Assembly (NCBI GenBank): GCA_021801525.1
Contig: JAJYXW010000133.1
Span: forward strand, 1-48,584
Source of the DNA: Actinomycetes bacterium
Lineage (GTDB): Bacteria > Actinomycetota > Acidimicrobiia > Acidimicrobiales > JAJYXR01
Direction of reading: 5' to 3'
DNA length: 48,584 nucleotides
Shown: in pieces, positions 20,770-36,071 of the stretch
Position numbering within the stretch: the stretch's first letter is position 1
Layout of the letters: every line of letters starts with the position of its first letter
Notes under the pieces: generated by a model
What the model saw: only the letters and a program-made list of their open reading frames with translations
Told to the model about the DNA's origin: nothing
Database searches by the model: none
Translations under genes and position numbers: made by a program

Positions 20770-21828
20770 TTACGCAGACGGGCTCGTCCAGCCGGCCGGG
20801 AGAGCCACTTCCATACGCTCGGCCCAGGCGGCTATCGCCGAAGCAGTCGGGCCTGCTATCTGAAGTGCCTCCGACGGATTCACGTCGTCGGGGTGCACAC
20901 GGTTCCTCCCCGGCACCCGCCCACCTGCCGCCTCGACGCCATCGCGGAGCTCGGCCAGCCTCGCCGGCGCCCCCCCGGTTGCGTCGAGCGTCTCGACGTC
21001 GATAGCGACGATCAGGTGGGAAAGCCCCTGTTTCCTCCCTGCCGCAGCGTGCGCCAGCGGGTCTGCCACCTCGGTCGATAGTTTGGGCCCGACCATCCCG
21101 CCGGTCAGGGCCTCGAGGAGGAGAGCCAGGGCGAAACCCTTTGCCCCGCCTGCCGGTGCGACCATGCCTGCGAGTGCAGCATCCGGGTCTGTCGTGGGTC
21201 GCCCCCCGGCGTCGAGCGCCCAGCCTTCCTCGAGCAGCTTGCCGCTTGCAGCGTGCTCGGCGATCTTCCCCCTCGTGACGGCGCTCAAGGCCAGGTCCAC
21301 CACCACCGGGCGTTCTCCTGCAGGGAAGGCAGCGGCGATAGGGCTGGTGGAGACGAGCGGTCTGTTCCCTCCCCAGGGGGCAATCGCTGCGGGTCCGTTC
21401 GACGCGACGAGGCCAACGAGCCCGGCTCCGGCGAGCCGCATGGCGTAGAGGCCGAGGGAGCCGCAATGCCCGGAGTCGGCGACGCTGACTGCCGCGATGC
21501 CGTGCGTGCGGGCGCGCTCGGCGGCAATGCCTGCCGCTTCCCAAGCCTGCCAGTGGCCGAGCCCGGCCTCGCCATCTAGGGCCACTGTTGCTCCGCCGTC
21601 TCGTACCGTCCGGAGATCGGCAGCAGGGTTGGAGCCTCCCTCGACGAGTCGCTCGAGGTAGTAGGGCAGGCGGAGGAGCCCGTGCGAGCGCAGTCCCCAG
21701 AGCTCGGTGACCGCCAGGAGCCATGCGCTGCGATGTGCTCGTTCGCCGGGGACTCCTGTCGCGCCGAGCAGCTTTGCGCCGAGCGAGGCTGCTTCCCCGA
21801 CGGTTGTGCTCACGGGAGCGTTATCCAT
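20770..21828 (-). CDS. Ldh2-type malate/L-lactate/(R)-sulfolactate dehydrogenase family
   Basis: This 352-residue protein has Ldh2-family features: SHGLLRLPYY, the catalytic His in SGHCGSLGLYA, APWGGNRP, VVDLALS..RGKI, GWALDAGGRPTTDP and a GGAKGFAL segment. The family reduces 2-oxo acids such as oxaloacetate or sulfopyruvate with NAD(P)H and includes ComC, the (R)-sulfolactate dehydrogenase. The usual GTNP before the nucleotide region reads STSP here. It is the last gene of the minus-strand operon that starts with the fumarase-like genes. Given the SuyAB-like lyase in the same predicted regulon, ComC activity is my favoured reading, with malate dehydrogenase as the alternative. Confidence 0.82.
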   Translation of the reverse strand: MDNAPVSTTVGEAASLGAKLLGATGVPGERAHRSAWLLAVTELWGLRSHGLLRLPYYLERLVEGGSNPAADLRTVRDGGATVALDGEAGLGHWQAWEAAGIAAERARTHGIAAVSVADSGHCGSLGLYAMRLAGAGLVGLVASNGPAAIAPWGGNRPLVSTSPIAAAFPAGERPVVVDLALSAVTRGKIAEHAASGKLLEEGWALDAGGRPTTDPDAALAGMVAPAGGAKGFALALLLEALTGGMVGPKLSTEVADPLAHAAAGRKQGLSHLIVAIDVETLDATGGAPARLAELRDGVEAAGGRVPGRNRVHPDDVNPSEALQIAGPTASAIAAWAERMEVALPAGWTSPSA

Positions 21829-21843: not shown

Positions 21844-22311
21844 CTAGTGGACCGGGTTCGCGATCACGGTGGCGACTATCGCGTACCACCCGAGCCCGCA
21901 CAACGCAGAGCAGAGCGTGTAGACGAAGCCGAGCCACGCTTTCCTCGCCCATCTCGTACGCGCGTAGTCCCTGACGACCGCCGTGGTGCCTATAGCTCCG
22001 TGCAGGAGCGCTGCGGTGAGCATGGTCCCGTCCCAGGTCACCCACAAGGCGCTGCTCCAACGGCGCGCCACGAAGCTCGCCCCCGTGCGGGACACGTCGG
22101 TGAGCAGGTGGACGAACAGGAGATGTCCGAGGACGAGGACGGAGAGCAGAAGCCCCGTTCCCCGCATGGCGACCCAGAGAGCTGCCGACGCGTGATAGCC
22201 CCCGGACCTGCCGGGCACGGCCTCGCCGGGCGGTTGCGTGCCGGCCGCGTACGAAGCCATGCCTGCTCCGCCCCGTGTCGCCTGCGCAGCTGTGCTCTGG
22301 TCGGCGCTCAT
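21844..22311 (-). CDS. sdhD: SDH/fumarate reductase-like membrane anchor subunit D
   Basis: This 155-residue protein has three hydrophobic segments. It carries a conserved His-rich pair (VLVLGHLLFVHLLTDV) and LLHGAIG, which could ligate haem b or shape the quinone site. ATG 22311 overlaps the subunit C stop by 4 bases (ATGA), and the gene ends 15 bases before the Ldh2 gene. It would anchor the flavoprotein/iron-sulfur pair to the membrane and pass electrons to quinone. Confidence 0.8.
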   Translation of the reverse strand: MSADQSTAAQATRGGAGMASYAAGTQPPGEAVPGRSGGYHASAALWVAMRGTGLLLSVLVLGHLLFVHLLTDVSRTGASFVARRWSSALWVTWDGTMLTAALLHGAIGTTAVVRDYARTRWARKAWLGFVYTLCSALCGLGWYAIVATVIANPVH

Positions 22312-22871
22312 AGGACTGGTGCGAGGATCAGCACGCTCGAGACGATGCCGGCCACCACACTCAGCACCGTCACGGGTACGAGGGCGATGCGCGAGGCTCG
22401 CGCGCTCAGGTTCCACCCGTCCACAGCGAGGATGCGCAGGCCGTTCAGTGCGTGGAACAGCACCGCGAACACGAGGCCGCATTCGAGCACCCGCAGCTCT
22501 GGCGTGGCGTAGAGGGAGTGGACACGGTCGTAGAGCCGGGTGGAGAACGCGAACAGGCTCACGTCGACTATATGGAGGGTGAGGAACCCGAGTACCCCTA
22601 CCCCGGTGATGCGGTGGAGGTAAAAGGCCCACCTGGTCGCGTAGGCCGGGTCCCCAGGTCGCAGCTCCAGGGCGCGAAGCGTGTTGGCGACTCCCCAGAG
22701 CCTCACGGGCCGCCCAGAACCCCCGGGCCGCCCAGAACCCCCAGGCCGCCCAGAACCCCCAGAACCTTCAGAACGGCGCAGCCCGCTCATAACGACCAGC
22801 ACGCAGAAGGCTCCGAGCGCGACGACGAGCAGTGACAGGGCGCTCAAGAAAAGGGTGTCGGGGAGGCTCAT
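22308..22871 (-). CDS. sdhC: SDH/fumarate reductase-like cytochrome b subunit C
   Basis: This 187-residue protein has an N-terminal hydrophobic segment, a Gly/Ser/Arg/Pro repeat linker (about 35-55), then WAFYLHRITGVGVLGFLTLHI and FHALNGLRILAVDGW. These are the usual SdhC haem/quinone signatures with their histidines. ATG 22871 overlaps the sdhA stop by 4 bases. The first segment plus repeat linker looks like an addition to the normal subunit, which usually starts near the HR-x-TG helix. Confidence 0.82.
   Translation of the reverse strand: MSLPDTLFLSALSLLVVALGAFCVLVVMSGLRRSEGSGGSGRPGGSGRPGGSGRPVRLWGVANTLRALELRPGDPAYATRWAFYLHRITGVGVLGFLTLHIVDVSLFAFSTRLYDRVHSLYATPELRVLECGLVFAVLFHALNGLRILAVDGWNLSARASRIALVPVTVLSVVAGIVSSVLILAPVL
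22708..22765. repeat. 18-bp tandem repeat in sdhC, about 3 copies
   Basis: The unit GGGCCGCCCAGAACCCCC (plus-strand reading) is repeated head to tail with minor changes. It encodes the GSGRPG linker of subunit C on the minus strand. The in-frame period would allow length variation without loss of the gene. Confidence 0.8.
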
Positions 22872-24679
22872 GGAGATGTTCTCGCCTGCCCGCCCGAATC
22901 GCCCGAATCGCCCGTAGCATCGTGACCTGGCGGAGCGAGACGCGACAGCTCCACCGGTACCGTGCGGATCTGAGGCCGCCCGCCCTCGCCGGCGCGCACG
23001 CGGACGCTCCTGAGCCAGCGGGCGTTGTCGGTCTCGGGGAAGTCCGACCGGTAATGGGCGCCGCGGGACTCCTCGCGTTCGAGTGCCGAGGCGACGAGGC
23101 AGCGAGCGGCTGTCACCTGGTTCTCCAGGTCGATTGCTTCCTGCCAAGTGGGGTTGAGCTGCGGGGGTCCCGGAGCGCGGGTCCTGGTGCATCGCTCGGA
23201 GAGATCCTCCAGGGCGTCGAGCGCCTCGACGAGGTTGGCCCGGTCGCGCACCACCCCGGCGCGACGCCACATGAGCTCCTTCAGCTCCTTGCTCAGGGCC
23301 ATGGGGTGCTCTCCTTCGTCGGCGCCAAGTGCGCGGAAAGCCTTGGCGAAGAACCCTCTGGCGGCAGCGATGGACGGGCGGCCCTTCGTCGAAGCACCCC
23401 TCGAAGCACCCTTCGAAGTGCCTGTCGAAATACCGGAGAGCATCTCGGACGCCGTGTCGCCTGCGCGGGCTCCGAACACCGTGGACTCCGCCACGCCGTT
23501 GCCGCCGAGCCTGTTGGCTCCATGCATGCCGCCGGAGTCCTCGCCTGCCACCAGCAGGCCCGGCAACTCGGTGCGGCAGTCGACGTCGGTCACCACACCG
23601 CCCATCTGGAAGTGCGCCACCGGGGAGACCTCGACCGGGCCCGTCGAGAGGTCCTGGCCGAGTTGGCGGGTGCGGTCGACCATCCCCGGGAACCTCCGCC
23701 GCACCTCCTCGGTGCCGAGCACCGACGCTATGTCAATGAGCACGCCGCCGGCCGGTGTGCCCCTGCCCGCTGCGATCTCGGTGTAGCTGGCCCGCGACAC
23801 CACGTCGCGCGTGGAGCGCTCCATTCGCTCGGGGTCATAGCGCACCATGAAGCGCTCTCCCAGGGCGTTCACCAGGAGCGCCCCGGCACCGCGCAGGCCC
23901 TCCTCCAGCAATGCCCCGGTGAGGCGCGAGTCTCCGGCGAGCAGGCCCGTGGGATGGAACTGGAGCATCTCCATATCCCTGAGCTCGAGCCCGGCCCTGT
24001 AGCACATGGCGATCCCGTCGCCGGTCTTCTCCCGTGCAGGCGTCGCGAGGCTGTACATGGTCGCCGCGCCGCCGGTTGCCATGACCACCACCTTCGCACC
24101 GATGAGCAGGGGGCGGCCAGAGCGTATGTCGAGCGCAGCGATGCCGGACACCTCGCCCTCCTCCACTACGAGGTCGAGAGCGCGGACATCCTCGAGCTCG
24201 CGGACGCCGATGCGGAACATCTGATCGCGGAGCCTTCCCATGATCTCGAGCCCGGTGAGGTCGCCTCGGTGCACCGTGCGGTCGAATGTCTGGCCGGCAA
24301 AGGCCTTCTGGTGTATCCGCCCATCCGGCGTGCGGTCGAAGAAGCATCCCACTCGAGTCTCGAGCTCGACGATCACCTTCGGCGCGTCGTTCACGAGCGC
24401 CCAGGCAAGGTCCTGGTCGTTCAGCCAGTACCCGCCCGCGAGGGTGTCGGCGAAATGCCCCTCGATCGAGTCGCTCGGGTCGAGCACGGCGTTGAAGCCA
24501 CCTTGGACCATGCGCGTGCAGCCCGACTTGCCGACGATCCCCTTGCTCACCACCGTCACGTCCGAGCCGGGCGTCCGCTCGGCCAGGTGCAAGGCGCACA
24601 TGAGCCCGGCGCCGCCGCTCCCGACGATGGCGACGTCGGTCTGTATCGTCTCGGGGCCCGGGAGGTCGCTCGGCTTCAT
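22868..24679 (-). CDS. sdhA: SDH/fumarate reductase-like flavoprotein subunit A, non-canonical FAD site
   Basis: This 603-residue flavoprotein has the FAD dinucleotide motif (VAIVGSGGAGL) and the dicarboxylate-site residues of the family: H242 in FHPTG, E260 and R263 in EEGLRG, R291 in RDVVSRA, H356 in VAHFQMGG and R390 in HGANRLGGN. The histidine that normally binds FAD covalently (in SHT) is replaced by C54 in SGCTRMVQGG, so FAD is probably bound non-covalently. RGEGG reads RGAGA. A diacid-type substrate fits, but the altered flavin site and the neighbouring genes leave open an analogue such as 3-sulfopropionate. ATG 24679 is used; the gene overlaps sdhC by 4 bases. Confidence 0.87.
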   Translation of the reverse strand: MKPSDLPGPETIQTDVAIVGSGGAGLMCALHLAERTPGSDVTVVSKGIVGKSGCTRMVQGGFNAVLDPSDSIEGHFADTLAGGYWLNDQDLAWALVNDAPKVIVELETRVGCFFDRTPDGRIHQKAFAGQTFDRTVHRGDLTGLEIMGRLRDQMFRIGVRELEDVRALDLVVEEGEVSGIAALDIRSGRPLLIGAKVVVMATGGAATMYSLATPAREKTGDGIAMCYRAGLELRDMEMLQFHPTGLLAGDSRLTGALLEEGLRGAGALLVNALGERFMVRYDPERMERSTRDVVSRASYTEIAAGRGTPAGGVLIDIASVLGTEEVRRRFPGMVDRTRQLGQDLSTGPVEVSPVAHFQMGGVVTDVDCRTELPGLLVAGEDSGGMHGANRLGGNGVAESTVFGARAGDTASEMLSGISTGTSKGASRGASTKGRPSIAAARGFFAKAFRALGADEGEHPMALSKELKELMWRRAGVVRDRANLVEALDALEDLSERCTRTRAPGPPQLNPTWQEAIDLENQVTAARCLVASALEREESRGAHYRSDFPETDNARWLRSVRVRAGEGGRPQIRTVPVELSRLAPPGHDATGDSGDSGGQARTSP

Positions 24680-24818: not shown

Positions 24819-25613
24819 TCACGTCGCACCTGCCGCAGGCGGCCCAGTGACGCGCCAGCGCCGCAGCCTCCTGATTGCGTCGAACGGGTCTATTCGCTTA
24901 GGGCAGCAAGCGCTGCATGCTCCGATGTAGTGGCAGCGGTCTATGCCGTCGAGACGACCGATGCGCGCCAGGCGTTCGGTCCTCATCGTGTCCCTGCTGT
25001 CCGCGATCAGGACCATCGCACGATTGAGCGCTGCAGGTCCAAGGAAGTCGCGCCCCTCGTCGGAGACAGAGCACGAGGAGTAGCAGATTCCGCAGGTGAT
25101 GCAGTCGAGTGCCGGGTCTATCGTCCTGCGCTCGGGGGAGTCCGGGCGGACGACAGCCGGGGCCGACACGGCTGCGTCGGGCACCGGATAAGGCGTCACT
25201 GCGGCCCACCTGGCGAAGAACGGCGCCGGGTCCACGACGAGATCCCGCAGCACCGGAAGGCCGGCGAGGGGCGCCAGGCGCAGCTCCTTTGCACCGCTTG
25301 GCACCGAGGACTGGCAGGCGAGCACCGACGTGCCGTTGGCTCTGAGCGCGCAGGTCCCGCACATCGCCACTCTGCAGGAGTAGCGGAACGCGAGGGAGGG
25401 GTCGTGGTCACGCTGTATGGCCACGAGCACGTCGAGCACCTTCATTCCTGGGTGGCTCTCCACTACGAAGCGGTCGTCCTTGCCGCTCTCCGACCTTCGC
25501 ACGAGCACTTCGAGCGATCCGACGGCTCGAGCCCCGACCGGGCGCGTCCGCGAGCGCACGGAGATCCGGTGAAGGATACGCGAGGGCCTGCCTCTGGCAG
25601 TGCTCCGAGCCAC
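24819..25613 (-). CDS. sdhB: SDH/fumarate reductase-like iron-sulfur subunit B
   Basis: This protein of about 264 residues has a [2Fe-2S] ferredoxin-like cluster (CRVAMCGTC followed by a further Cys in VLACQ) and the bacterial-type [4Fe-4S] and [3Fe-4S] motifs (CITCGICYSSC, CHYIGACSACCPKRIDP). All expected ligands are present. GTG 25613 lies 5 bases after the stop of the beta-subunit gene; a slightly later GTG is possible. The order B-A-C-D, with B first, differs from the common C-D-A-B order of housekeeping complex II. Confidence 0.84.
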   Translation of the reverse strand: MARSTARGRPSRILHRISVRSRTRPVGARAVGSLEVLVRRSESGKDDRFVVESHPGMKVLDVLVAIQRDHDPSLAFRYSCRVAMCGTCALRANGTSVLACQSSVPSGAKELRLAPLAGLPVLRDLVVDPAPFFARWAAVTPYPVPDAAVSAPAVVRPDSPERRTIDPALDCITCGICYSSCSVSDEGRDFLGPAALNRAMVLIADSRDTMRTERLARIGRLDGIDRCHYIGACSACCPKRIDPFDAIRRLRRWRVTGPPAAGAT

Positions 25614-25618
25614 GTCTC

Positions 25619-26281
25619 TCAGATGCCGAGGATCTGCTCGGCCTTGGCCCGGCGCTCTTCGGTCCTGCGCGCCACCTCTTCGTACGCGGAGGCGCCGGTC
25701 GAGTCCATCGTCACGAAGAGCGGCCCGAAGTTGCTCACACGCAGCTTCCACAGGCACTCGGGCAGGAGGTCCTCGAAATAGGTCTCCTCTATGGCATCCA
25801 CCTGTTGTGTCTCGGGGCTCGCGGCCCCACCGACAATGGACAGGTAGACCGCCCCCGCCGCTTGGAGCGACTCGCCCGAAGTTCGGCTCAGGCCCCCCTT
25901 GCCAACTATGGCCCTGGCGCCCAGCTGCTCCACGCAGCCCCGGGTGAAGCGATCCATGCGCATCGAAGTGGTCGTGCCTACAGAGACCGGGTCGTAATGC
26001 CCGTCCTCGCCCTTGCGGATGCTCGGCGCGCTGTGAAGCAGGATGGCTCCGGTGAGGTCCACCGGTGGCGCCTTTCCTTCGTCGAAGATCCGGATGAGTG
26101 TGGCGTCGCGCAGCGCCCAGATGACGCCGTCGACCCTCAGCACCTCCCCGACCCTGAGCGCACTTGAGGTCACGCTGTCGAGCGGTCCGGTTATGCGGCG
26201 GACAGGCGCTTCGATAGAGGCTCCCTCGGAAGCTGGGCCATCGGAAGCTGGGCCTTCGGAAGCTGGGCCCTCAGAAGCCAT
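25619..26281 (-). CDS. class I fumarase / tartrate dehydratase-like beta subunit
   Basis: This 220-residue protein resembles TtdB and the C-terminal half of class I fumarases (SVGxTTSMRMD at about 100-110, IVGKGG with K128, GGAAS). Two pocket positions differ from the family pattern: the His of RDxxH is Leu (RDATL, residue 62), and GPTTS reads GTTTS. The first 22 residues are an Ala-Ser-Glu-Gly-Pro repeat. ATG 26281 overlaps the end of the alpha gene by 11 bases. With the alpha subunit it should hydrate or dehydrate a small hydroxy-diacid or an analogue such as sulfolactate/sulfoacrylate. Confidence 0.85.
   Translation of the reverse strand: MASEGPASEGPASDGPASEGASIEAPVRRITGPLDSVTSSALRVGEVLRVDGVIWALRDATLIRIFDEGKAPPVDLTGAILLHSAPSIRKGEDGHYDPVSVGTTTSMRMDRFTRGCVEQLGARAIVGKGGLSRTSGESLQAAGAVYLSIVGGAASPETQQVDAIEETYFEDLLPECLWKLRVSNFGPLFVTMDSTGASAYEEVARRTEERRAKAEQILGI
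26226..26279. repeat. 15-bp tandem repeat at the start of the beta-subunit gene, about 3.5 copies
   Basis: The unit TCGGAAGCTGGGCCN is repeated head to tail. On the minus strand it encodes the Ala-Ser-Glu-Gly-Pro N-terminal repeat. It sits directly at the translational junction of the alpha and beta genes. Confidence 0.8.
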
Positions 26282-27233
26282 ATTCCACCATGCCGTCGGC
26301 ATGCACCCTGGCCTTCGCGCGCTCTCCTCGCCAGCACTGGATGTTCACCGCGACGGGGTTCATGGATATGTGCGTGTAGGCGTACTCGACGTGGACGGCG
26401 AAGGCGGTGGTGGCCCCTCCGAGGCCCTGGGGGCCGATCTCCGTGGCGTTGAGCGCCGCGCACAGCAGGCGTTCCAGCTCCGCGATGTCGGCTTCAGGGT
26501 GAGACTCGCCCACCGGCCGGGCTATGGCTCGCTTGGCCAACGCTACGCACTCGTCGGCGGTACCCCCGAGGCCGACCCCCACGATCGTAGGCGGGCAGGG
26601 CTTGGCCCCGGCCGAGATCACCGAGTCGAGGACGAAGCGCTTCACCCCGGCCAGGCCCTCTGCGGGGGTGAGCATGGCCAGGAAGGACATGTTCTCCGAA
26701 CCGGATCCCTTGGGGACGAGCAGCAGGTCGAGCCATGGTGCGCCGCTCACGAACTCCACGTGGAAGATGGGCACGCCTCTTCCGGTGTTGGTCTGGGGGT
26801 TATGGCGCGTCAGAGGGTGCACGACGCTCGAGCGGAGCGAATGGCGAAGCGTAGCCTGCTCGATGCCGTCGGCCAGCGCCTGCTGCAGGCGGGCGCCGTC
26901 GATCGGGATCTCCGTGCCTATGCCCAGGAAGTACACCGGTATGCCGGTGTCCTGGCAGACGATGAGACCGGTGCGGTCGGAGGTCTCCACGGCGTCGGCC
27001 ATGACCCGCAGTCGGATCCTTGCGCCCTCGTCCGGCTCGTTCTGCTGGGCGCGCCCGATGGCGGAGCGCACGTCAGGAGGCAGGACCGTCAGCGCCTGCT
27101 TGTACAGGAAGCTCGACACCTCGGCGAGGCCCGCATAGAGCGCGGGACCCGACATCTCGATCCGCTCGGGGCCTGACGCAATCCTCGCGCCGACGCCCGC
27201 CGGAGCAACTCGGCCTGCCCCTGCCTGGGTCAT
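26271..27233 (-). CDS. class I fumarase / tartrate dehydratase-like alpha subunit
   Basis: This 320-residue protein has the class I iron-sulfur hydratase alpha pattern. The three cluster cysteines are in VCQDTG, in the GTADECVALA region and in NIQCWRGER, with TRHNPQTNTGRG, GSGSENMS and GPQGLGG between them. These enzymes use an oxygen-sensitive [4Fe-4S] cluster as Lewis acid. It is the first gene of the minus-strand operon. ATG 27233 has an AGG six bases upstream; ATG 27155 would remove a 26-residue low-complexity extension. A MITE-like element lies between its start and the predicted promoter. Confidence 0.85.
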   Translation of the reverse strand: MTQAGAGRVAPAGVGARIASGPERIEMSGPALYAGLAEVSSFLYKQALTVLPPDVRSAIGRAQQNEPDEGARIRLRVMADAVETSDRTGLIVCQDTGIPVYFLGIGTEIPIDGARLQQALADGIEQATLRHSLRSSVVHPLTRHNPQTNTGRGVPIFHVEFVSGAPWLDLLLVPKGSGSENMSFLAMLTPAEGLAGVKRFVLDSVISAGAKPCPPTIVGVGLGGTADECVALAKRAIARPVGESHPEADIAELERLLCAALNATEIGPQGLGGATTAFAVHVEYAYTHISMNPVAVNIQCWRGERAKARVHADGMVEYGF

Positions 27234-27326
27234 ATGCAGCCTGCCCGGCTCATGTCTGGCCACCTGCCGGCAAGGTGTACCTCCACTGGGGATCGAGCCG
27301 GCAACGCCGACGGTGCGTACTTGTAA

Positions 27327-27503
27327 GAGGCTCAGCGGATAGGGATGCCGGGCTTGCCGTCCCCCAGACTTCGCATTGCGGCGTTGTCCCCTTGCTCTGA
27401 GGATGGGTCGGGCAGGCACTCCAGCCTGCCCTTCCTCCTCCGCCTTGCCCTGCTCGTCTGGATGAACGGCTCCCTGATCCAACCTCCCTATCCGCTGAGC
27501 CTC
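27327..27503 (-). mobile_element. 177-bp MITE-like element, copy 1
   Basis: A 177-base element bounded by near-perfect inverted repeats starting GAGGCTCAGCGGATAGGGA. It is flanked on both sides by TAA (27324-27326 and 27504-27506), consistent with a 3-bp target duplication. A second copy lies at 34084-34260 in opposite orientation and differs at three positions. The centre holds an 8-bp perfect hairpin (GGGCAGGC / GCCTGCCC with a 6-base loop). No complete gene is inside, so it would depend on a transposase elsewhere. It separates the predicted fum/sdh promoter from the first gene. Confidence 0.85.
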
Positions 27504-27526
27504 TAACTCGAGTTGCCATCAATAGA

Positions 27527-27542
27527 TCTGACCTCTTACCAA
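27527..27542 (-). promoter_or_regulatory. putative GntR operator, site A
   Basis: Read on the minus strand this is TTGGTAAGAGGTCAGA. It matches site B at 28641-28656 in 15 of 16 bases. It lies 12 bases downstream of a predicted -10 box for the fum/sdh operon and 184 bases before gntR. The core GGTCAGAtC resembles the GGTnnnACC operator half-sites of FadR-type regulators. Confidence 0.6.
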
Positions 27543-27554
27543 GTGACACACCCG

Positions 27555-27583
27555 AGAGTAGGATGGAGGGCTGTGGCTGTCAA
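27555..27583 (-). promoter_or_regulatory. predicted promoter of the fum-sdh-ldh2 operon
   Basis: On the minus strand there is a perfect -35 TTGACA (27583-27578), a 17-base spacer and a -10 TACTCT (27560-27555). Transcription would start near 27547, run through operator site A and the MITE, and reach the alpha-subunit gene at 27233. Confidence 0.55.
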
Positions 27584-27725
27584 CCCATGAGGGACGTCAC
27601 AGGGCTGCAGGGGGTTGGATAGGGGGTTACGTAGGCGGTTAGGCACAGGGCTTGGCAACGTTCGCAACGTTCGGATCCGCAGGGGTGCGCGAAGCGCTAG
27701 CCCAGGCCTGCGAGAAGGGAGGGAA

Positions 27726-28613
27726 GTGGTGGCGTCCGAGACGAGTGATTTGGAGGCGTCCGCTCCGGGTGCGATGAGCGACGGCGCAACTGGAGCAGGT
27801 GCCGACGGCGCCGGCGTTGCTGCCGACTGGCGTGCCGGCACGGCAGAGGTGTGGAAGCCGCTCAAGCAACCAGGCAACCTCACCCAGCGGATCGTGCTCG
27901 CGATCGAGGAGCTGGTGGACACCAGGCAGATAGGAGCTGGCGAGAGGCTGCCGGCCGAGCGCGAGCTGGCGCGGCTCCTCGGCGTATCTAGGCCGGCTCT
28001 GCGCGAAGGGCTGAAGATCCTCGAGGCTCGCGGGCGCCTAGCCGTGCGGCACGGCAAGGGAGTGTTCGTCCGCATGAGCGGTGAGGAGGCCATGCGAGCA
28101 GGCCTGGCTCATGTGCGGGCGAACCTGGCCGAGCTGTTTGCCATGCGCGAGGCGTTGGAGGAGCCGGCAGCGGCCTGGGCGGCCGCCAGCGCGACTCCCG
28201 CCGACGTAGCGCGCCTCGCCGAGGCGCTCGCCGCCGAGGAGGAGGCACGGCGGCCTCCCGTCGACTTCGAGCGCCTGGGCGCGCTCGACGCCGGGTTCCA
28301 CATGCTCATCGTGGAGCTCGCGAAGAACCGGTTCCTCCGCCAGACGCTCGACGTGCTCCAGGACATGCTGGATGCGGGGATGGAGACGACCCTCACGATC
28401 CCAGGGAGGATCGACCAGGCGCGCGCAGACCACAGGGCGATCTTCGAGGCCATCGAGAAGGGGGACGCTGCCGGTGCCCGCCAAGCGGTTCGCAAGCACG
28501 TCCGAGGCGCCCGCGACGCTGCGCTGGCCCGCGTCGGGCATGGTCTCGAGGACCTCGGGAATCCGGAGGGCCCGGCCGGAGCACAGCGCGAAGTACCTGG
28601 TGCAAGTGATTGA
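27726..28613 (+). CDS. GntR/FadR-family transcriptional regulator
   Basis: This protein of about 295 residues has a winged helix-turn-helix (LPAERELARLLGVSRPALREGLKILEARG split over about 80-115, with GKGVFV as wing). A C-terminal all-helical FCD ligand domain follows (MREALEEPAA, HMLIVELAKN, DHRAIFEAIEKGDAAGARQAV), with His residues that often bind a metal and a carboxylate ligand. The start is GTG 27726 or 27729 after GGGAGGG. It lies between the two catabolic operons, and both carry the same putative operator just after their promoters, so it is probably a repressor released by a pathway acid. An AACGTTCGC direct repeat precedes the gene at about 27655-27672. Confidence 0.85.
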   Translation: MVASETSDLEASAPGAMSDGATGAGADGAGVAADWRAGTAEVWKPLKQPGNLTQRIVLAIEELVDTRQIGAGERLPAERELARLLGVSRPALREGLKILEARGRLAVRHGKGVFVRMSGEEAMRAGLAHVRANLAELFAMREALEEPAAAWAAASATPADVARLAEALAAEEEARRPPVDFERLGALDAGFHMLIVELAKNRFLRQTLDVLQDMLDAGMETTLTIPGRIDQARADHRAIFEAIEKGDAAGARQAVRKHVRGARDAALARVGHGLEDLGNPEGPAGAQREVPGASD

Positions 28614-28638
28614 CAGCCGGAGGCAGCGCAGTTACAAT
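28610..28638 (+). promoter_or_regulatory. predicted strong promoter of the suyAB-like operon
   Basis: TTGACA at 28610-28615, a 17-base spacer, and TACAAT at 28633-28638: near-consensus sigma-70-type boxes at ideal spacing. The -35 overlaps the gntR stop codon. The expected start near 28645 falls inside operator site B, as for a repressed promoter. Confidence 0.75.
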
Positions 28639-28640
28639 CA

Positions 28641-28660
28641 TTGGAAAGAGGTCAGACCAG
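28641..28660 (+). promoter_or_regulatory. putative GntR operator, site B
   Basis: TTGGAAAGAGGTCAGACCAG begins two bases after the -10 box. Its first 16 bases match site A with one change. It contains GGTCAGACC, a perfect match to the GGTnnnACC core of FadR-type operators, centred on the expected transcription start. Confidence 0.65.
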
Positions 28661-28745: not shown

Positions 28746-29054
28746 GTGGGGAACGACGATTCGGATCGGGTCGGTTGCCTTGTCCACAACGACGGTGACG
28801 ACGTGGCGGTCGCAGTACGCGACCTCGAACCCGGGGGAGTGCCAGTCGCGTGGCTCGACTCCGGCAGGCGAGGGGAGGTCGTGGTGACCGAGCGCGTGCC
28901 GCTCGGTCACAAGGTCGCCCTAGTCGACATGCCCGAGGGGCACAAGGTGGTCGAGTACTTGGAGCAGATCGGCCTGACGAAGTGCGCGCTGAAGGCTGGC
29001 TCGCACGTCCACACGCACAACCTGAGGAGCGCCAGATGGCAGCGAAGCGCGTAA
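28746..29054 (+). CDS. suyA: SuyA-like / altronate dehydratase N-terminal (SAF) small subunit
   Basis: This 102-residue SAF-domain protein (CLVHNDGDDVAVAVRDLEPG, VPLGHKVALVDMPEGHKV, HVHTHNL) matches the small subunit of split UxaA-type lyases. In (R)-sulfolactate sulfo-lyase, the SAF domain is a separate protein, SuyA, as here; altronate dehydratase fuses both parts. GTG 28746 has GGAGGGA just upstream. It overlaps the large-subunit gene by 19 bases. The gene symbol is given on architecture and context, not on a diagnostic residue. Confidence 0.75.
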   Translation: MGNDDSDRVGCLVHNDGDDVAVAVRDLEPGGVPVAWLDSGRRGEVVVTERVPLGHKVALVDMPEGHKVVEYLEQIGLTKCALKAGSHVHTHNLRSARWQRSA

Positions 29055-30193
29055 GCGGTTACCGGAGGGCCGACGGCAGGGTCGGGGTCCGCAACCATGT
29101 GGTTGCCATCCCGGTAGACGACCTGTCGAACGCAGCCGTCGAGGGGATAGCGAAGCTCGTTCCCGGCGTCATCCCCCTGTCGCACCACTACGGGAGGCTG
29201 CAGTTCGGCGAGGACTTGGACCTCACCTTCCGCACCCTCATCGGCACCGGGGCCAACCCGAACGTGGCGGCCGCTGTCGTCGTCGGGATAGAGCCGAGCT
29301 GGACCGAGCGCGTGGTGGAGGGCATAGCCGCTTCGGGCAAGCCGGTCGTGGGTCTTTCCATCGAGCGCCACGGCGACCTCGCGACGATCGCGGACGGAGC
29401 GCGCCACGCCGCGTCGATGATGCAGGGGGCTAGCGAGCTCGTGCGCGAGCCCGTGGATCTTTCCGAGGTAATGGTCTCCATCAAGTGCGGCGAGTCCGAC
29501 ACGACGAGCGGGCTCGGTTCGTGCCCGACTACAGGCCAGGTGGTCGACCGGCACGTCGGGGCAGGGGGAACGGTGCTCTTCGGGGAGACCACAGAGCTGA
29601 CTGGCGGCGAGCACCTTATCGCCGAGCGCTGCGCGGACGACGAGGTGCGCAAGAAGTTCCAAGGCTTCTTCGACCGCTACCTCGATCTCGTGGAGCGTTC
29701 GGGGGCGAACCTGCTCGGCTCCCAGCCAACCGAGGGGAACATCCGGGGCGGGCTCTCGACGATCGAAGAGAAGGCGATGGGCAACATCGCGAAGACCGGG
29801 AGCGCGCCGGTAGTCGGAGCGCTCGAGCCCGCCGAGGCGCCCGTGAAGGCCGGGCTCAACTTCATGGACACGTCGTGCGCGGCGGCAGAGTGCATCACCT
29901 TGATGGCAGCCGCGGGCGCGGTGGTGCATCTCTTCCCGACGGGTCAGGGCAACATAGTCGGGAATCCGATCGAGCCCGTGCTGAAGATAACGGCGAATCC
30001 GATCACTGCGTCCACGATGTCCGAGCACATCGACCTCGACGTGTCGGGCCTGCTCGAGCTCGAGTTCACGCTCGAAGAAGCCGGGGATCGCCTGATGGAC
30101 CTGGTGGAGCGGACGGTGAACGGCCGTCTGACGGCTGCCGAGACGATCGGGCACCGCGAGTTCGTCATCACCAAGCTCTACCCGAGCGCGTAA
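29036..30193 (+). CDS. suyB: SuyB-like / UxaA-family lyase large subunit
   Basis: This 385-residue protein has UxaA/SuyB C-terminal domain features: GRVGVRNHV, SHHYGR, GTGANPNVAAAVVVGIE, SIKCGESDTTSGL, FGETTEL, QPTEGNIRGGLSTIEEKAMGN (split here by family variation), MDTSCAAAE and PTGQGN.VGNPIEPVLKI. It would use an iron site to eliminate sulfite from (R)-sulfolactate, giving pyruvate; altronate or galactarate dehydration is the alternative. ATG 29036 has GAGGAG six bases upstream. The neighbouring sulfonate-type transporter and TauE/SafE exporter favour the sulfonate role. Confidence 0.8.
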   Translation: MAAKRVSGYRRADGRVGVRNHVVAIPVDDLSNAAVEGIAKLVPGVIPLSHHYGRLQFGEDLDLTFRTLIGTGANPNVAAAVVVGIEPSWTERVVEGIAASGKPVVGLSIERHGDLATIADGARHAASMMQGASELVREPVDLSEVMVSIKCGESDTTSGLGSCPTTGQVVDRHVGAGGTVLFGETTELTGGEHLIAERCADDEVRKKFQGFFDRYLDLVERSGANLLGSQPTEGNIRGGLSTIEEKAMGNIAKTGSAPVVGALEPAEAPVKAGLNFMDTSCAAAECITLMAAAGAVVHLFPTGQGNIVGNPIEPVLKITANPITASTMSEHIDLDVSGLLELEFTLEEAGDRLMDLVERTVNGRLTAAETIGHREFVITKLYPSA

Positions 30194-30237: not shown

Positions 30238-31131
30238 ATGGAAGCGGGCGACGTGCCAGGCGAGCGCGACGCCGAGGGTCCCGGTGGGACCATGGCGGCA
30301 AGAGGTTCCGAGCGAGGCGCTACCGAGCGAGGTGGTGCCGAGCCCACAGGCGCCATGGAATCGGTCCTCTTGAGCGTCGACGGCGCCAGGATCTGCTATC
30401 GCTTGCGCAAGCAGGTGGTGACAGCCGTCGAAAGCGCCACCTTCTCGATGGACCGCCACGAGCGGCTGATGCTTATAGGGCCCTCGGGGTGCGGCAAGTC
30501 CACGTTGCTGAAGGCGGTGGCAGGCTTCATCCCTCTGGCGGGTGGCAGGATCACCTTCGACGGCCACGAGGACCTCACTCCGGGCCCTGATCGCGCCGTC
30601 GTCTTCCAGGAGTTCGACCAGCTGTTCCCCTGGCGAACTGTTCTCGAGAACGTCGCGTACCCGCTGCGGGTAGTTGGTAGGGAGCGCTCGGAGGCCAGAG
30701 CGATCGCGGAACGGTTCCTCGAGATGACCGGGCTGACCCAGGCTGCGGACCGCCACCCGCACGAGCTCTCGGGAGGTATGAAGCAGAGAGTGGCGATCGC
30801 GCGAGCCCTCGCACTCGAGCCGGCCATGCTCTTGATGGACGAGCCCTTCGGGAGCCTCGACGCGATCACGAGGGCGCGCCTGCAGCGCGAGCTGAAGGCA
30901 ATCGCGGACCGCACGCGTGTCTCGATACTGTTCGTCACCCACAGCATCCTCGAGGCCATGACCCTTGGCGACAGGGTCGTGGTCCTCGGCTCCCCACCGT
31001 CACGAGTCCTCGACATCGTGGACGTGCGGGGGCTAGGTGGGCCGGGCGACCCTCGCTACGTCGAGACCCAGGCACACCTGCACGAGTTGTTGGGCGCAAC
31101 CGACGAGGACCTGAGCGGTGTCGAAGGCTGA
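30238..31131 (+). CDS. sulfonate/nitrate-type ABC transporter ATPase
   Basis: This protein of about 297 residues has Walker A (GPSGCGKST), Q-loop (VVFQEFDQLFPW), signature (LSGGMKQR), Walker B (LLMDEP) and H-loop (FVTHS). It is closest in pattern to SsuB/TauB/NrtD ATPases, which energise import of sulfonates, taurine or nitrate. About 40 N-terminal residues before the domain are low-complexity (Gly/Glu/Arg), so the start is uncertain. ATG 30238 is chosen for the GAGG five bases upstream. It overlaps the permease gene by 14 bases. Confidence 0.83.
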   Translation: MEAGDVPGERDAEGPGGTMAARGSERGATERGGAEPTGAMESVLLSVDGARICYRLRKQVVTAVESATFSMDRHERLMLIGPSGCGKSTLLKAVAGFIPLAGGRITFDGHEDLTPGPDRAVVFQEFDQLFPWRTVLENVAYPLRVVGRERSEARAIAERFLEMTGLTQAADRHPHELSGGMKQRVAIARALALEPAMLLMDEPFGSLDAITRARLQRELKAIADRTRVSILFVTHSILEAMTLGDRVVVLGSPPSRVLDIVDVRGLGGPGDPRYVETQAHLHELLGATDEDLSGVEG

Positions 31132-32047
31132 AGCGGCCCTCGCTCCCGCCGACGAGGCCCCGAAGGCGGGCGAACTGCCACGAGGCGGTTCGTGGTGGCG
31201 TCCGGCCGGCCTGGCTATGCCGGGGGCTCAAGGAGGCCGCGGCGTCGCGGGGCGTCGGCAGTCCGCGTGGTCGAGGCTTCCCACGTGGTTCCGCCGCCTC
31301 ATCGTGTTCGTCGTGCTGGTGGCGTTCTGGCAGTTCTACGTGACGGTAAAGCATGTGAACCACCTGGTGTTCTCGAGCCCCTCGGCAGCGATGACAGCGG
31401 TCATCGACGGCTGGCGCAACGGGCAGATCGCTCATGCGACGGCGACGACGCTCGAGGTTCTCGTCATCGGCATGGCGATAGGTCTGGTCGTCGGCTTGCT
31501 CTTTACGGTGGCGGCCACCGTCACCACAGTGGGCAAGGACTTCGTGATGATGATGACGGCAATGATCAACCCGCTGCCTTCGATCGCGATCTTGCCGCTT
31601 GCCATCATTTGGTTCGGGCTGAACTCCAAGGCCCTGATCTTCGTCATTGCCCTCGCCGTGGTGTGGCCGATGGCGATCAACATGAGCACAGGGTTCACCA
31701 CCGTCAACCCGACGCTGCTCATGGCTGCTCGCAATCTGGGCTTGCATGGATCGCGCATGATAAGGGACGTTCTCATACCTGCCGCGCTCCCTTACACGAT
31801 GAGCGGGATCAAAGTAAGCTGGGCATTCGGGTGGCGTACCGTTATTGCCGCGGAGCTGGTGTTCGGCACTGCCGGTGGATCGGGTGGCCTCGGCTACTAC
31901 ATCAACAACAGCCAGTACTTCTTACAGATACCCAACGTGTTCGCTGGTCTGATAACAATTGCGGTAATAGGCATAGCTGTGGAGACTATGCTCAATATGG
32001 TAGAGAAGCGAACTGTGGTACGGTGGGGGATGCAGCGGTCCGCGTAA
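31118..32047 (+). CDS. sulfonate/nitrate-type ABC transporter permease
   Basis: This 309-residue permease has a cytoplasmic N-terminus of about 60 residues and six membrane segments. Its EAA-like coupling loop (AARNLGLHGSRMIRDVLIPAALPYTMSGIKVSWAF, split over about 205-240) is typical of SsuC/TauC. GTG 31118 lies inside the ATPase gene. From about 31890 the codons become noticeably AT-richer than in the rest of the gene. Confidence 0.85.
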   Translation: MSKAEAALAPADEAPKAGELPRGGSWWRPAGLAMPGAQGGRGVAGRRQSAWSRLPTWFRRLIVFVVLVAFWQFYVTVKHVNHLVFSSPSAAMTAVIDGWRNGQIAHATATTLEVLVIGMAIGLVVGLLFTVAATVTTVGKDFVMMMTAMINPLPSIAILPLAIIWFGLNSKALIFVIALAVVWPMAINMSTGFTTVNPTLLMAARNLGLHGSRMIRDVLIPAALPYTMSGIKVSWAFGWRTVIAAELVFGTAGGSGGLGYYINNSQYFLQIPNVFAGLITIAVIGIAVETMLNMVEKRTVVRWGMQRSA

Positions 32048-32204
32048 TAGGGCGATCGAATAGCGCAACCGGATAGCACAGCAGCGAGGGATATAGAGGG
32101 ACATAGTTCCGGCGGGCACAGCCCGTGTCGGCCACACGCAGGGTGGAATAGCTTGGCAAAGGATAGGACGGCAAATGTTGGCAAAGAAACCGGAGGGGAA
32201 CCAG
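32048..32204. other. AT-richer spacer with RATAG words before the binding-protein gene
   Basis: The spacer between the permease and binding-protein genes is less GC-rich than its surroundings and contains repeated AATAG/GATAG/CATAG words, three of them spaced by 13 bases (about 32045-32080). I find no gene or clear terminator in it. It ends with the strong ribosome-binding site GGAGGGG of the next gene. Confidence 0.4.
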
Positions 32205-33242
32205 ATGAACGGACCATTAGGAAGAACTGCAAGACGCTGGCGCGGCGCAGGATCACTTGCCACCGGGCTTCTCGCGCTGAGCCTGCTGGCTGCTGCCTGT
32301 AGCTCTAGCAGCTCGACCAAGCCGTCGGCATCGGCGAAGAGCACGTCGTCAGGCCTGCACGGCAGCTTGACCATAGCTGTGCAGCCGGACCTCGGGTACT
32401 CGCCGCTCTACGTCGTCGACCAGGAGGGATGGCTGAAGAAGGCCATGCCCGGGGTTAACGTCACCTGGGAGACCCTGAACTCCGGCTCGGCGATGGAGAC
32501 CGGCATGCTCTCCGGGAGCATCGACGTGGGAGCCGGCGGCGTCGCACCGTTCATCCTCGGATGGGCCAAAGGTGTCGGGTGGAAGCTGGTCACCTCCCTC
32601 GGTGAGTCGAACCTCTGGCTGGTAGTGAAGCCGCAGATCACCTCCTTCAAGTCGATAACGCCAGCCGACCGCATCGCGGTGGTGGCGCCTACGTCGATCC
32701 AGGCGATCATCCTGAAGGCGGCCGCGAAGAAGTACCTGGGCAACCCGAGCGCCCTCGACTCGAACCTGACGATCCTGTCGCACCCGGTGGCTTACCAGGC
32801 CTTCCGTTCGGGGACGATCCAGGGCGCTCTCGACGCGCCTCCATTCCAGCAAGAAGAGGTCGCCGCGGGCGGGCACGTGTTGTTGAAGAGCTACTCCCTC
32901 TTCGGCCCCTCCACGTTCAACAGTGCCTTCGCGCTGCCGAGCTACTACAACAGCCACAAGCAGATCATGAAGATCCTGTTCCAGCAGACACAGCGCGCTG
33001 TGACGCTGCTGAACACCCACCCGAACCAGGGTGCGCGGATCATCTCAGCCTACGAGCACGGGTCGCTCACGGCGGCGGCAGCCAAGGCCGCCATCACGAG
33101 CTCCACCGAGCACTGGACCGTGACTCCCCACGGCTACCTCGCGTACGCGAAGTTCATGAAGTCCATCGGGCTCATCTCCAAGGCGCCCACGTCGATCAAG
33201 CAGATCGAGTTCCCGACTCTCTACGGGACGAACGGCAGCTGA
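32205..33242 (+). CDS. sulfonate-type ABC transporter substrate-binding lipoprotein
   Basis: This 345-residue protein has a lipoprotein signal (arginine-rich start, hydrophobic core, lipobox AAAC, then a Ser-rich linker) and an SsuA/TauA/NMT1-like periplasmic-binding fold. It starts SLTIAVQPDLGYSPLYVVDQEGWL and contains MLSGSIDVGAGGVAPF. The family binds sulfonates, nitrate or pyrimidine precursors. ATG 32205 is preferred over ATG 32175 because GGAGGGG stands eight bases before it. It supplies the permease pair encoded upstream. Confidence 0.85.
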   Translation: MNGPLGRTARRWRGAGSLATGLLALSLLAAACSSSSSTKPSASAKSTSSGLHGSLTIAVQPDLGYSPLYVVDQEGWLKKAMPGVNVTWETLNSGSAMETGMLSGSIDVGAGGVAPFILGWAKGVGWKLVTSLGESNLWLVVKPQITSFKSITPADRIAVVAPTSIQAIILKAAAKKYLGNPSALDSNLTILSHPVAYQAFRSGTIQGALDAPPFQQEEVAAGGHVLLKSYSLFGPSTFNSAFALPSYYNSHKQIMKILFQQTQRAVTLLNTHPNQGARIISAYEHGSLTAAAAKAAITSSTEHWTVTPHGYLAYAKFMKSIGLISKAPTSIKQIEFPTLYGTNGS

Positions 33243-33280: not shown

Positions 33281-33319
33281 CCGCCGTTCCCAGACTCGCT
33301 TTGAGCCTGGGAACGGCGG
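33281..33319 (+). terminator. long perfect hairpin between the binding-protein and exporter genes
   Basis: CCGCCGTTCCCAG (33281-33293) and CTGGGAACGGCGG (33307-33319) are perfectly complementary 13-bp arms. The loop has an inner CTC/GAG pair. No T-run follows, so it is either a rho-assisted terminator, an mRNA stabiliser, or a translational control structure. The TTG start of the exporter gene lies in the loop. Confidence 0.55.
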
Positions 33320-34020
33320 TTGCCGCCATAGCCATAGAAGTGCTGGGTGCCACGGTCCAGGGTGTGTTCGGCTTCGGCATCAACCTGCTCGCCGCGCCGT
33401 TGCTGGTTCTCGTCGACCCTCACTTCGCCCCGGCGCCCGTGGTTCTCGCGAGCCTCGTGGGCAGCGCGATGATCGTGGTACGTGAGCGGGGCAGCGCGGA
33501 CCGCGCATCCATCGCATGGGCGCTTGGCGGGCGCGTCCCCGGCACCGCGCTCGGCGCCCTGGTCGTTCTAGCCGCAGCTGGGGCGCGGCTCAGGCCTGTC
33601 GTCGGCCTCGTCGTCCTCGCTGCCGTCGGGCTGAGCCTCGCCGGGCGCAGCCTGGCGAGGAGCCCGCGCAACCTCCTCGGCGTGGGTGCCGCGTCGGGTG
33701 TCATGAACATGATCGCGGGCCTGGGAGGAGCTCCCTTCGGGCTCGTCTGCCGCGACATGCCCGGGCCGGTCCTGCGCCCCACGCTTGCCGCCTACGTTCT
33801 CGCTGGAGGCACGATGTCAGCCGCAGCCTTGGCTCTGACGGGCGAGCTGGGCGTGGAGAGCCTCCGGCTAACCGCGCTGCTGATCCCTGGCGTGCTCGTC
33901 GGGTTCGCGCTCTCGGGGCTGCTCGTGCCGCTAGCCGACCGCAAGGCGGCTGCGAGACCGGGGATACTTCTCATAGCCACTGCGGGTGCGCTCGCCGCGA
34001 TCGCGAAGGGGCCGTGGTGA
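33301..34020 (+). CDS. TauE/SafE (TSUP)-family exporter
   Basis: This 239-residue integral membrane protein has about eight hydrophobic segments. It shows the TSUP pattern VQGVFGFGINLLAAPLLVL near the N-terminus and a second, related half (LGVGAASGVMNMIAGLGGAPFGL). TSUP proteins move sulfite, sulfoacetate or other organosulfur anions. Next to a SuyAB-like lyase the likely cargo is sulfite. The start is TTG 33301, because the first membrane helix begins almost at once and no other start fits. That codon lies inside a 39-base hairpin. Confidence 0.83.
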   Translation: MSLGTAVAAIAIEVLGATVQGVFGFGINLLAAPLLVLVDPHFAPAPVVLASLVGSAMIVVRERGSADRASIAWALGGRVPGTALGALVVLAAAGARLRPVVGLVVLAAVGLSLAGRSLARSPRNLLGVGAASGVMNMIAGLGGAPFGLVCRDMPGPVLRPTLAAYVLAGGTMSAAALALTGELGVESLRLTALLIPGVLVGFALSGLLVPLADRKAAARPGILLIATAGALAAIAKGPW

Positions 34021-34083
34021 TGCCGGGCCGTTGGGCACGTGCATCAGGCGGTCGCGCGTGGAACTTCGGGGACGGAGCACGAA

Positions 34084-34260: not shown

Positions 34261-34273
34261 TAAGTTTGGCGCT

Positions 34274-35020
34274 ATGACACCTGAGGAGCTCGTAGCTCGA
34301 GCCTGTCCCAAGATCGGCGCTCTCGGTAGCGCCTTCTACTTCGTGCCGGAGACGGTTGCCGCCGGAGCGGCCCTCGGATTGGACGTGTTCCAGTTCTACT
34401 TCCTCGGCAGGGGCGGCGTGCTCGGGGACGTGGAGCCCCGGGTGGTGGCGAGCGCGTTCGGGTACTTCGAACCCTCTCTCGTGGAGATGATGTGGAATGC
34501 CGCGAGGGCGAAGGCGGCGCCTCGCGAAGCCGGCAGAGCGCACCTCGCGGCATGCCAGTCATTCGGTAGGGCCCACCTCGGTGACCTGCCCGGCCTCGGC
34601 GCCTTCTGCGAGTCGGCCGAGGCGGTGGTCGCCGCGGCCGACCCTGCGGGGCTCGCGCTCTACTCCGGGATATCCGCGGAGGCGCTGCCAGACGACCTGC
34701 CGGCCCGCGCCATGCAGCTTGTGGCAGTGCTCCGGGAGTATCGAGGGAGTGCTCACCTCGTGGCCGTGATTGCCTCGGGGCTCGAGCCGAGGATCGCCCA
34801 CTACCTCCGGCGGCCGGCGGACCTCGGGCTGTTCGGCTGGCCTGCGGAACCGCCCCCGGAGGTGACAGATTCCGACAGGCGGGCACTCGCGGATGCAGAC
34901 GCGCTGACCGACAAGCTGGTGCTCAGTGGCTACGGCGTCCTCGACGGCCCGGGTCGCGAAGCTCTTGTTGCGGGTGTCGACCAGATCGAGTCGGCACTGT
35001 CTGGCCCGGGATCCGTGTGA
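34274..35020 (+). CDS. SCO6745-like uncharacterised protein
   Basis: This 248-residue protein resembles the actinobacterial SCO6745 family, seen in the pattern FYFVPETVAAGAALGLDVF, GRGGVLGDV, FGYFEPSLV and the LREYRGSAHL segment. The biochemical role of the family is not known to me; some members look like duplicated winged-helix folds. It starts at ATG 34274 directly after the MITE. The next gene is a 2-hydroxyacid dehydrogenase on the same strand. A link to the sulfonate pathway is only by position. Confidence 0.65.
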   Translation: MTPEELVARACPKIGALGSAFYFVPETVAAGAALGLDVFQFYFLGRGGVLGDVEPRVVASAFGYFEPSLVEMMWNAARAKAAPREAGRAHLAACQSFGRAHLGDLPGLGAFCESAEAVVAAADPAGLALYSGISAEALPDDLPARAMQLVAVLREYRGSAHLVAVIASGLEPRIAHYLRRPADLGLFGWPAEPPPEVTDSDRRALADADALTDKLVLSGYGVLDGPGREALVAGVDQIESALSGPGSV

Positions 35021-35108
35021 CCGCTGCCACACTCGGGCGCGCTGCCGCACGCGGGCGCTTCGCCGGCGAAATGACGGGCGCACTGCCGGCGCAGTGGTGA
35101 GCGCAGTG

Positions 35109-36071
35109 GTGAGCACAGTGGACATAGCAGTCGTCGAGGACGTGTGGGGAGCGCCCTTCGAGGAGCTGGCAGGGCGCTTCTCGGTGGAGCGGCGGCCGGA
35201 AGCCTGGTCGGATCGCAGGGAGCTCTTGCGCGTGGCGGGCTCGGCGCGGGCGCTCGTGGTGCGAAACCGCACCCGCGTCGACCGGGACCTCCTCTCGTCT
35301 TCCAAGCGGCTCGAGGTGGTCGCGCGCGCCGGCGTGGGCCTCGACAACGTCGATCTCGATGCAGCCGACGGCTTCGGGATAGTCGTCGTGTCCGCTCCTG
35401 GCGCCAACGCGAGGAGCGTGGCGGAGCACGCTCTCGGCATGGCCTTGGCTCTGGAGCGGGGTATCACCCAGCACGACCGCTCGGTTCGCGAGGGCGCCTG
35501 GGAGCGCTCGCTCGGGCGTGAGCTGGCAGGATCCACGTGGGGGGTTGTCGGGCTCGGCTCGACGGGCAGGGCAATGGCCGGAGTCGCGCGCAGCTTCGGC
35601 ATGGAAGTCTGCGGCCACGATCCCTTTGTCGTCACGAGCGTCGAGGGGGTGGAGGTGCTCCCTGGTCTCTACGACCTGCTCGAGCGATCCGACGTCGTGT
35701 CGCTCCACCTGGCGCTGAGCGACGCCACGCAGATGCTGGTGGATGCCAGGTTCCTCGGAGCGATGAAGCCGGGTGCCCTACTCGTGAACGTGGCTCGCGG
35801 TGGCCTGGTGGACGAAGACGCCCTGGCGGACGTCCTCGAAGCAGGCCGTCTAGGGGGAGCCGCCCTCGACGTGCGCTCGGAGGAGCCGCCGGTTCTGGGC
35901 CGTCTCGAGCGCTCCGAGCGGGTCGTTCTCACACCTCACGTAGCCGGGCTCACCGTTGAGTCCCAGCGTCGCGTGGCGGAGATGCTTGCTTCGGACATGG
36001 AGGCGGTGCTCCTCGGGCGCGAGGCGGCCAACCCGGCCGGGCGTCTCCGCATGCCGCTTCCCAGATCCTAG
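35109..36071 (+). CDS. D-isomer-type 2-hydroxyacid dehydrogenase, SlcC-like candidate
   Basis: This protein of about 320 residues has the family hallmarks: RAGVGLDNVDLDAA, the NAD motif GLGSTGRAMAG, VSLHLALSDAT, the catalytic Arg in NVARGGLVDE, a downstream Glu (RSEEPP) and the catalytic His in LTPHVAGLT. The family includes phosphoglycerate dehydrogenase and SlcC, the (S)-sulfolactate dehydrogenase. With an Ldh2/ComC-like enzyme it could interconvert sulfolactate enantiomers via sulfopyruvate. The start is GTG 35109 or 35106, within a GCGCAGTGGTGA tandem duplication (35089-35112), with no clear ribosome-binding site. Confidence 0.8.
   Translation: MSTVDIAVVEDVWGAPFEELAGRFSVERRPEAWSDRRELLRVAGSARALVVRNRTRVDRDLLSSSKRLEVVARAGVGLDNVDLDAADGFGIVVVSAPGANARSVAEHALGMALALERGITQHDRSVREGAWERSLGRELAGSTWGVVGLGSTGRAMAGVARSFGMEVCGHDPFVVTSVEGVEVLPGLYDLLERSDVVSLHLALSDATQMLVDARFLGAMKPGALLVNVARGGLVDEDALADVLEAGRLGGAALDVRSEEPPVLGRLERSERVVLTPHVAGLTVESQRRVAEMLASDMEAVLLGREAANPAGRLRMPLPRS

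Follow-up and report, generated by a model that had tools for sequence, protein, structure and literature searches.

Two operons on opposite strands, separated by a gntR gene, very probably form one regulon of that GntR regulator, as judged from their operators and those of related loci, and the common theme of the regulon is sulfolactate desulfonation. They lie in a stretch of 48,584 nucleotides of actinobacterial DNA (hereafter, the window; Table 1). The explanation we prefer, with moderate confidence, is that GntR acts at both operators and that one 3-sulfopropionate pathway is split over the two operons; we lean slightly towards 3-sulfopropionate as the substrate of the minus-strand module. 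For the most specific form of the proposal, the case is evenly balanced: the minus operon would encode a previously unreported SDH (succinate dehydrogenase)-family 3-sulfopropionate dehydrogenase and a fumarase-family 3-sulfoacrylate hydratase. Both would occur in several phyla, and a FadR-type regulator would switch them on along with SuyAB through the operator TGGNMAGAGGTCAKAYC.

Table 1. Features of the two operons, the regulator and the predicted control sites in the window.
Feature	Position	Strand	Basis or remark
ComC-like dehydrogenase (Ldh_2), likely (R)-sulfolactate dehydrogenase	20770..21828	-	PF02615
SDH-like membrane subunit D	21844..22260	-	PF01127
SDH-like membrane subunit C	22308..22871	-	PF01127
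SDH-like flavoprotein	22868..24679	-	without covalent-FAD His; Glu at the E. coli SdhA Thr254 position
SDH-like iron-sulfur subunit (open frame; true start further downstream)	24819..25757	-	Fer2_3, Fer4
FumB-like class I hydratase beta subunit	25619..26302	-	PF05683
FumA-like class I hydratase alpha subunit	26271..27155	-	PF05681
Operator, fumarase/SDH-like operon	27525..27542	-	predicted, TTGGTAAGAGGTCAGATC; same variant before fumA in L051
Promoter-like boxes TTGACA-17-TACTCT, minus operon	27555..27583	-	sequence; TTGACA 27578-27583, TACTCT 27555-27560
gntR, FadR-type (GntR + FCD)	27729..28613	+	Pfam, NCBIfam; GTG start uncertain
Promoter-like boxes TTGACA-17-TACAAT, plus operon	28610..28638	+	sequence; TTGACA 28610-28615, TACAAT 28633-28638
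Operator, suyAB operon	28641..28658	+	predicted, TTGGAAAGAGGTCAGACC; orthologous sites before suyA
SuyA-like subunit (SAF domain)	28746..29054	+	PF08666
SuyB-like sulfolactate sulfo-lyase subunit	29036..30193	+	PF04295/PF20629
ABC importer: ATPase, permease, substrate-binding protein	30355..33242	+	
TauE-type sulfite exporter candidate	33301..34020	+	PF01925
SlcC-like D-2-hydroxyacid dehydrogenase (open frame, start uncertain)	34926..36071	+	PF02826/PF00389

A pair of probable operators flanking gntR

An earlier note on this DNA had placed the 16-mer TTGGwAAGAGGTCAGA at 27527-27542 on the minus strand and at 28641-28656 on the plus strand, and both coordinates are correct. Within the window these are the only matches with up to three mismatches (0.19 expected), and two or more matches arose in 1 of 100 shuffles. 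The motif is not common in the genome: the two sites are the sole exact copies in the 3.38-Mb assembly, and the six further matches among its 3,384,414 bases each carry three mismatches, a background level; the reversed 16-mer, used as a control over the whole assembly, gave 6 matches in total. The conserved unit, TGGNMAGAGGTCAKAYC, is longer than the 16-mer, at approximately 17-18 bp. A GGTnnnACC core had been proposed for both sites. The fit is exact for the plus site at 28641 and not exact for the minus site, which reads GGTCAGATC rather than GGTCAGACC and so has an imperfect right half, at positions where the matrix of orthologous sites (see below) conserves GGTCAKACC. A wider regulon in this genome was considered and rejected, further matches to GGNNAGAGGTCAKAYC (C169, C6, C43, C177) lying inside open frames or having no clear promoter.

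Promoter-like boxes of the form TTGACA-17-TAnnnT stand immediately upstream of each site, as had been suggested, both with spacers of 17 bp. Each site begins a few bases 3' of the -10 box, over the predicted transcription start, and since the sites overlie the expected start, GntR is most likely a repressor. A miniature inverted-repeat element of ~180 bp with 23-nt terminal repeats (27323-27507) also lies in the fumA leader, downstream of the minus promoter/operator; a second copy follows tauE (34083-34261), and about 29 long copies of the element, 77-100% identical, occur in the genome.

The assignment of the regulator to the FadR type is borne out by matches above cut-off to both PF00392 (the N-terminal GntR winged helix-turn-helix) and PF07729 (the C-terminal FCD domain). 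Its nearest NCBIfam models, LldR, NanR, GlcC and PdhR, all fall below cut-off, and its best PDB match is a PdhR structure. Orthologues of 49-61% identity were found in relatives, with D187, H191, H235 and H257 invariant in 8 orthologues; an Asp and three His are the metal-site residues of FCD domains.

Recurrence of the predicted operator in related loci

The suggestion that the fumarase/SDH-like and SuyAB-like operons belong to one regulon gains its support from sites that recur across orthologous loci. A matrix built from 18 sites of these loci, with the window excluded, gave 30.7 bits at 28641 and 28.5 bits at 27519-27542, the next site in the window scoring 9.4; the two operators therefore rank first and second with a lead of about 19 bits. 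In 258 kb of orthologous loci, the exact pattern AGAGGTCAKACC was counted 13 times, against a mean of 0.05 and a maximum of 1 in dinucleotide shuffles and none for the reversed control; most of the copies stand at promoters of sulfolactate or sulfonate genes near an orthologous GntR. The window, G116 and G049 had served to define the pattern, and the remaining loci are the independent part of this count. Across the orthologous loci the site precedes suyA, sulfoquinovose (sulfo-ED), ABC-transporter and fumarase/SDH operons. Because a window-free matrix picks out both sites and orthologues carry the site at these same operons, we regard the one-regulon claim as well supported.

Individual loci illustrate this pattern. 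In G116, which has a sulfo-ED cluster, TTGGACAGAGGTCATACC lies before suyA and AAGGACAGAGGTCATACC further on. G049 unites suyAB, SlcC, ComC, sdhDC, gntR, sdhAB, fumAB and ABC genes in one cluster, with gntR inside the SDH gene group and sites before suyA and before fumA, and more SuyB loci of the same taxonomic order have sites before suyA, SQase-side and ABC operons. The nearest named relative, Acidimicrobiaceae palsa_742 (L051), has AGAGGTCAGACC near suyA and, before fumA, AAGAGGTCAGATCTAT, the same variant as the minus operator of the window. Related sites (AGAGGTCAAACC, AGAGGTAAGACC, AGAGGTCTTACC) precede the corresponding genes in Pseudonocardiaceae and Actinomadura.

The plus operon encodes a UxaA-family SuyA and SuyB pair that, by Pfam assignment and identity, is close to the characterised type of cluster: SuyB is 58.7% identical to a protein encoded beside hpsN/hpsO in Cupriavidus pinatubonensis. 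The sole PDB relative of SuyB is galactarate dehydratase. An HTH_67 protein is also encoded in this operon. SuyB orthologues are 74-79% identical, and several are clustered with an EDD-type dehydratase, SDR, aldolase and aldehyde dehydrogenase, often with GH31, a set that reads as the Entner-Doudoroff pathway for sulfoquinovose. Of the two dehydrogenases expected to interconvert the sulfolactate enantiomers, ComC belongs to the minus operon and SlcC to the plus operon, and this division is in itself an argument that the operons are controlled jointly.

At L015/L016 (G116), L043, L047/L048 and L037, sulfo-ED clusters for sulfoquinovose that look complete are joined to SuyAB and have the same operator. 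In the SuyAB clusters at L041/L042 (G172) and L045/L046 (G376), the operator precedes an ABC transporter, and the G376 locus also has hydrolase or amidohydrolase genes; the G172 and G376 loci suggest another sulfonate feeder.

The SDH- and fumarase-like module

The minus operon is not a housekeeping one, because a normal SDH, its flavoprotein retaining the covalent-FAD His, is encoded elsewhere in the same genome (contig C130). The best NCBIfam models for the ComC-like protein and the SDH-like flavoprotein are L-sulfolactate dehydrogenase and the CoM/CoB fumarate reductase TfrA, respectively, both below cut-off. The flavoprotein of the window has the catalytic residues of SDH except at Thr254. 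All 87 family members examined lack the FAD His and have Glu in place of Thr254, the His position being Gly or Cys in the window flavoprotein and all relatives. As judged from E. coli fumarate reductase mutants, the missing covalent-FAD His disfavours succinate oxidation, and it puts a question over reaction direction. We considered the Thr254-to-Glu change as proof of a sulfonate substrate and rejected it, since Verrucomicrobiota members without SuyB share the Glu and no active-site column splits SuyB-linked from other members of the SDH family.

Among 80 named loci of this family, a class I hydratase is nearby in 58, SuyB (counted at at least 52% identity) in 29 and both in 22; a SuyB cut by a contig end at L054 brings the SuyAB link to 30 of the 80. 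On the tree, 15 of the 18 rows in the window's Actinomycetota clade are linked to SuyB. The gene set is found again, in varying order, in Actinomycetota, Bacillota, Chloroflexota, Planctomycetota and Pseudomonadota. Two genome samples contained the SDH family only in SuyB-bearing genomes, with small numbers of carriers, two in each sample (chance about 0.001 each, and 0.001 jointly without the window's own genome). Plasmids of Methylobacterium, Paracoccus and Pseudomonas carry the module beside sulfite exporters, with sulfite oxidase in two of the three stretches, and in the Paracoccus plasmid it is also accompanied by DHPS-type genes and suyAB. Among the culturable bacteria that carry the module are Rhodococcus jostii RHA1, Actinophytocola gossypii, Methylobacterium radiotolerans and Paracoccus versutus. 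The Verrucomicrobiota members lack a neighbouring SuyB, some lying beside dicarboxylate-transport and malate-dehydrogenase genes, and at L081 the module adjoins malate dehydrogenase and a dicarboxylate symporter; on account of these members and neighbours, the family probably has ordinary dicarboxylates as substrates as well.

Several variants of the module were observed. Pseudonocardiaceae have, instead of the class I hydratase, a lyase of the aspartase/fumarase superfamily, which scores above the argH cut-off and matches XcbC (coenzyme M biosynthesis) below cut-off, and the lyase operon carries the same operator type. An argininosuccinate-lyase-like enzyme takes the place of the hydratase beside SDH-like genes at L056:7764-9296, and also at L053-L055, L058, L062 and L073; this enzyme has matches to XcbC and XcbD, which belong to coenzyme M biosynthesis. 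In bacteria, that biosynthesis passes via sulfoacrylate, a step that our search of openly licensed PMC papers did not confirm. Aconitase X is encoded close to the SDH-like module at L061:15419-16795, L052, L126 and L134. On the Pseudomonas sp. MPC6 plasmid (L133), the module stands beside a methylmalonate-semialdehyde-type aldehyde dehydrogenase, sulfite oxidase and TauE, and SuyAB was not found in that stretch.

These data bear on other readings of the window. The miniature inverted-repeat element in the fumA leader, with its many genomic copies, starts with GTAAGAGGCTCAG, which is slightly site-like, and the two 16-mers might on that ground be chance or repeat-derived resemblances rather than operators; however, a matrix made without the window scores both far above everything else in it, and L051 has the same variant before fumA, leaving this reading a very slight probability. 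A different possibility accepts one regulon and takes the SDH/fumarase-like operon as an auxiliary C4 dicarboxylate route, from succinate via fumarate to malate, that operates during sulfolactate use. The retention of SDH catalytic residues apart from Thr254, the lack of a column setting SuyB-linked members apart and the neighbours at L081 all agree with such a route, yet the genome has its separate SDH, and the module is rare, confined to SuyB genomes in both samples and found with sulfite exporters. We consider this route unlikely.

It is also conceivable, again under one regulon, that the SDH-like enzyme runs as a reductase or has a different sulfonated acid, e.g. sulfosuccinate, as its substrate. 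The absent covalent-FAD His and the sub-threshold TfrA match point that way, but the SuyAB, ComC and SlcC partners better fit the malate analogue of 3-sulfopropionate, and we judge this improbable. Taken together, the family members without SuyB, the absence of a separating column and the missing FAD His leave the regulon claim strong and the substrate claim moderate.

Proposed pathway and comparison with known systems

In the 3-sulfopropionate pathway that we favour, the ABC importer would take up a C3 sulfonate, the SDH-like complex would convert 3-sulfopropionate to 3-sulfoacrylate, and the fumarase-like pair would hydrate the latter to (R)-3-sulfolactate. SuyAB would then cleave (R)-3-sulfolactate to pyruvate and sulfite, TauE would export the sulfite, and ComC and SlcC would interconvert the sulfolactate enantiomers. 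If a sulfonate takes the place of one carboxylate of succinate, the result is 3-sulfopropionate, and in the same series sulfoacrylate corresponds to fumarate and sulfolactate to malate; by our own reasoning from the CIP rules, the geometry of L-malate matches that of (R)-3-sulfolactate, the SuyAB substrate. Genes for the oxidase, hydratase and desulfonating enzyme (SDH-like, FumAB-like and SuyAB) occur together with the same predicted operator, and the set recurs in several phyla. The FadR-type GntR would sit on both operators and presumably repress until released by an acid of the pathway. Sulfolactate would be the best candidate inducer, since it is the intermediate common to the regulator's modules and the Asp/His of the FCD pocket, typical of acid-sensing members, are kept.

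3-Sulfopropionate is formed from homotaurine, and Enterococcus gilvus forms it from the abundant plant sugar sulfoquinovose; its degradation by bacteria had not previously been reported, according to the same paper (PMC11489063), and a 2026 review states that the mechanism for 3-sulfopropionate in Bilophila remains unclear (PMC12890257). As far as that paper relates it, a thesis proposed sulfopropionate, sulfoacrylate and sulfolactate as intermediates of homotaurine use in Roseovarius nubinhibens (PMC11489063). In openly licensed PMC papers, we found no published genes for the 3-sulfopropionate route, nothing relevant that tied GntR, or SDH plus fumarase, to sulfolactate catabolism, and no account of the predicted operator. 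The second operon would supply candidate genes for 3-sulfopropionate breakdown, and because the shared operator links these defined candidates with a desulfonating enzyme whose type is known, the question becomes directly testable. If true, the enzymes copy the succinate-fumarate-malate steps on a sulfonate.

The regulator resembles LldR, PdhR, FadR and their kind in its GntR and FCD domains, and in a predicted operator that has a GGTnnnACC-like core and is placed over the promoter. It differs from this subfamily in that the conserved site reaches left to TGGNMAGA, that its predicted targets are sulfolactate/sulfonate genes and that no named NCBIfam model reaches cut-off for it. In related genomes, sulfo-ED sulfoquinovose clusters ending in SuyAB are predicted to be controlled by the orthologous GntR and operator, whereas the window's two operons have no sulfo-ED genes and the upstream module is SDH/fumarase-like.

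The enzymes of the minus operon are like succinate dehydrogenase/fumarate reductase and class I fumarase in subunit set, domains and main catalytic residues, but they cluster with sulfonate genes, lack the covalent-FAD His, have Glu for Thr254 and share the genome with a second SDH. Known (2R)-sulfolactate sulfo-lyase systems likewise comprise SuyA, SuyB, SlcC-like and ComC-like dehydrogenases, TauE and an importer; the operon described here appears to extend these SuyAB desulfonation systems by an SDH-like complex and a fumarase-like hydratase under the same predicted regulator. The intermediates that we predict are the same as those of the R. nubinhibens route, to the extent that PMC11489063 describes the thesis.
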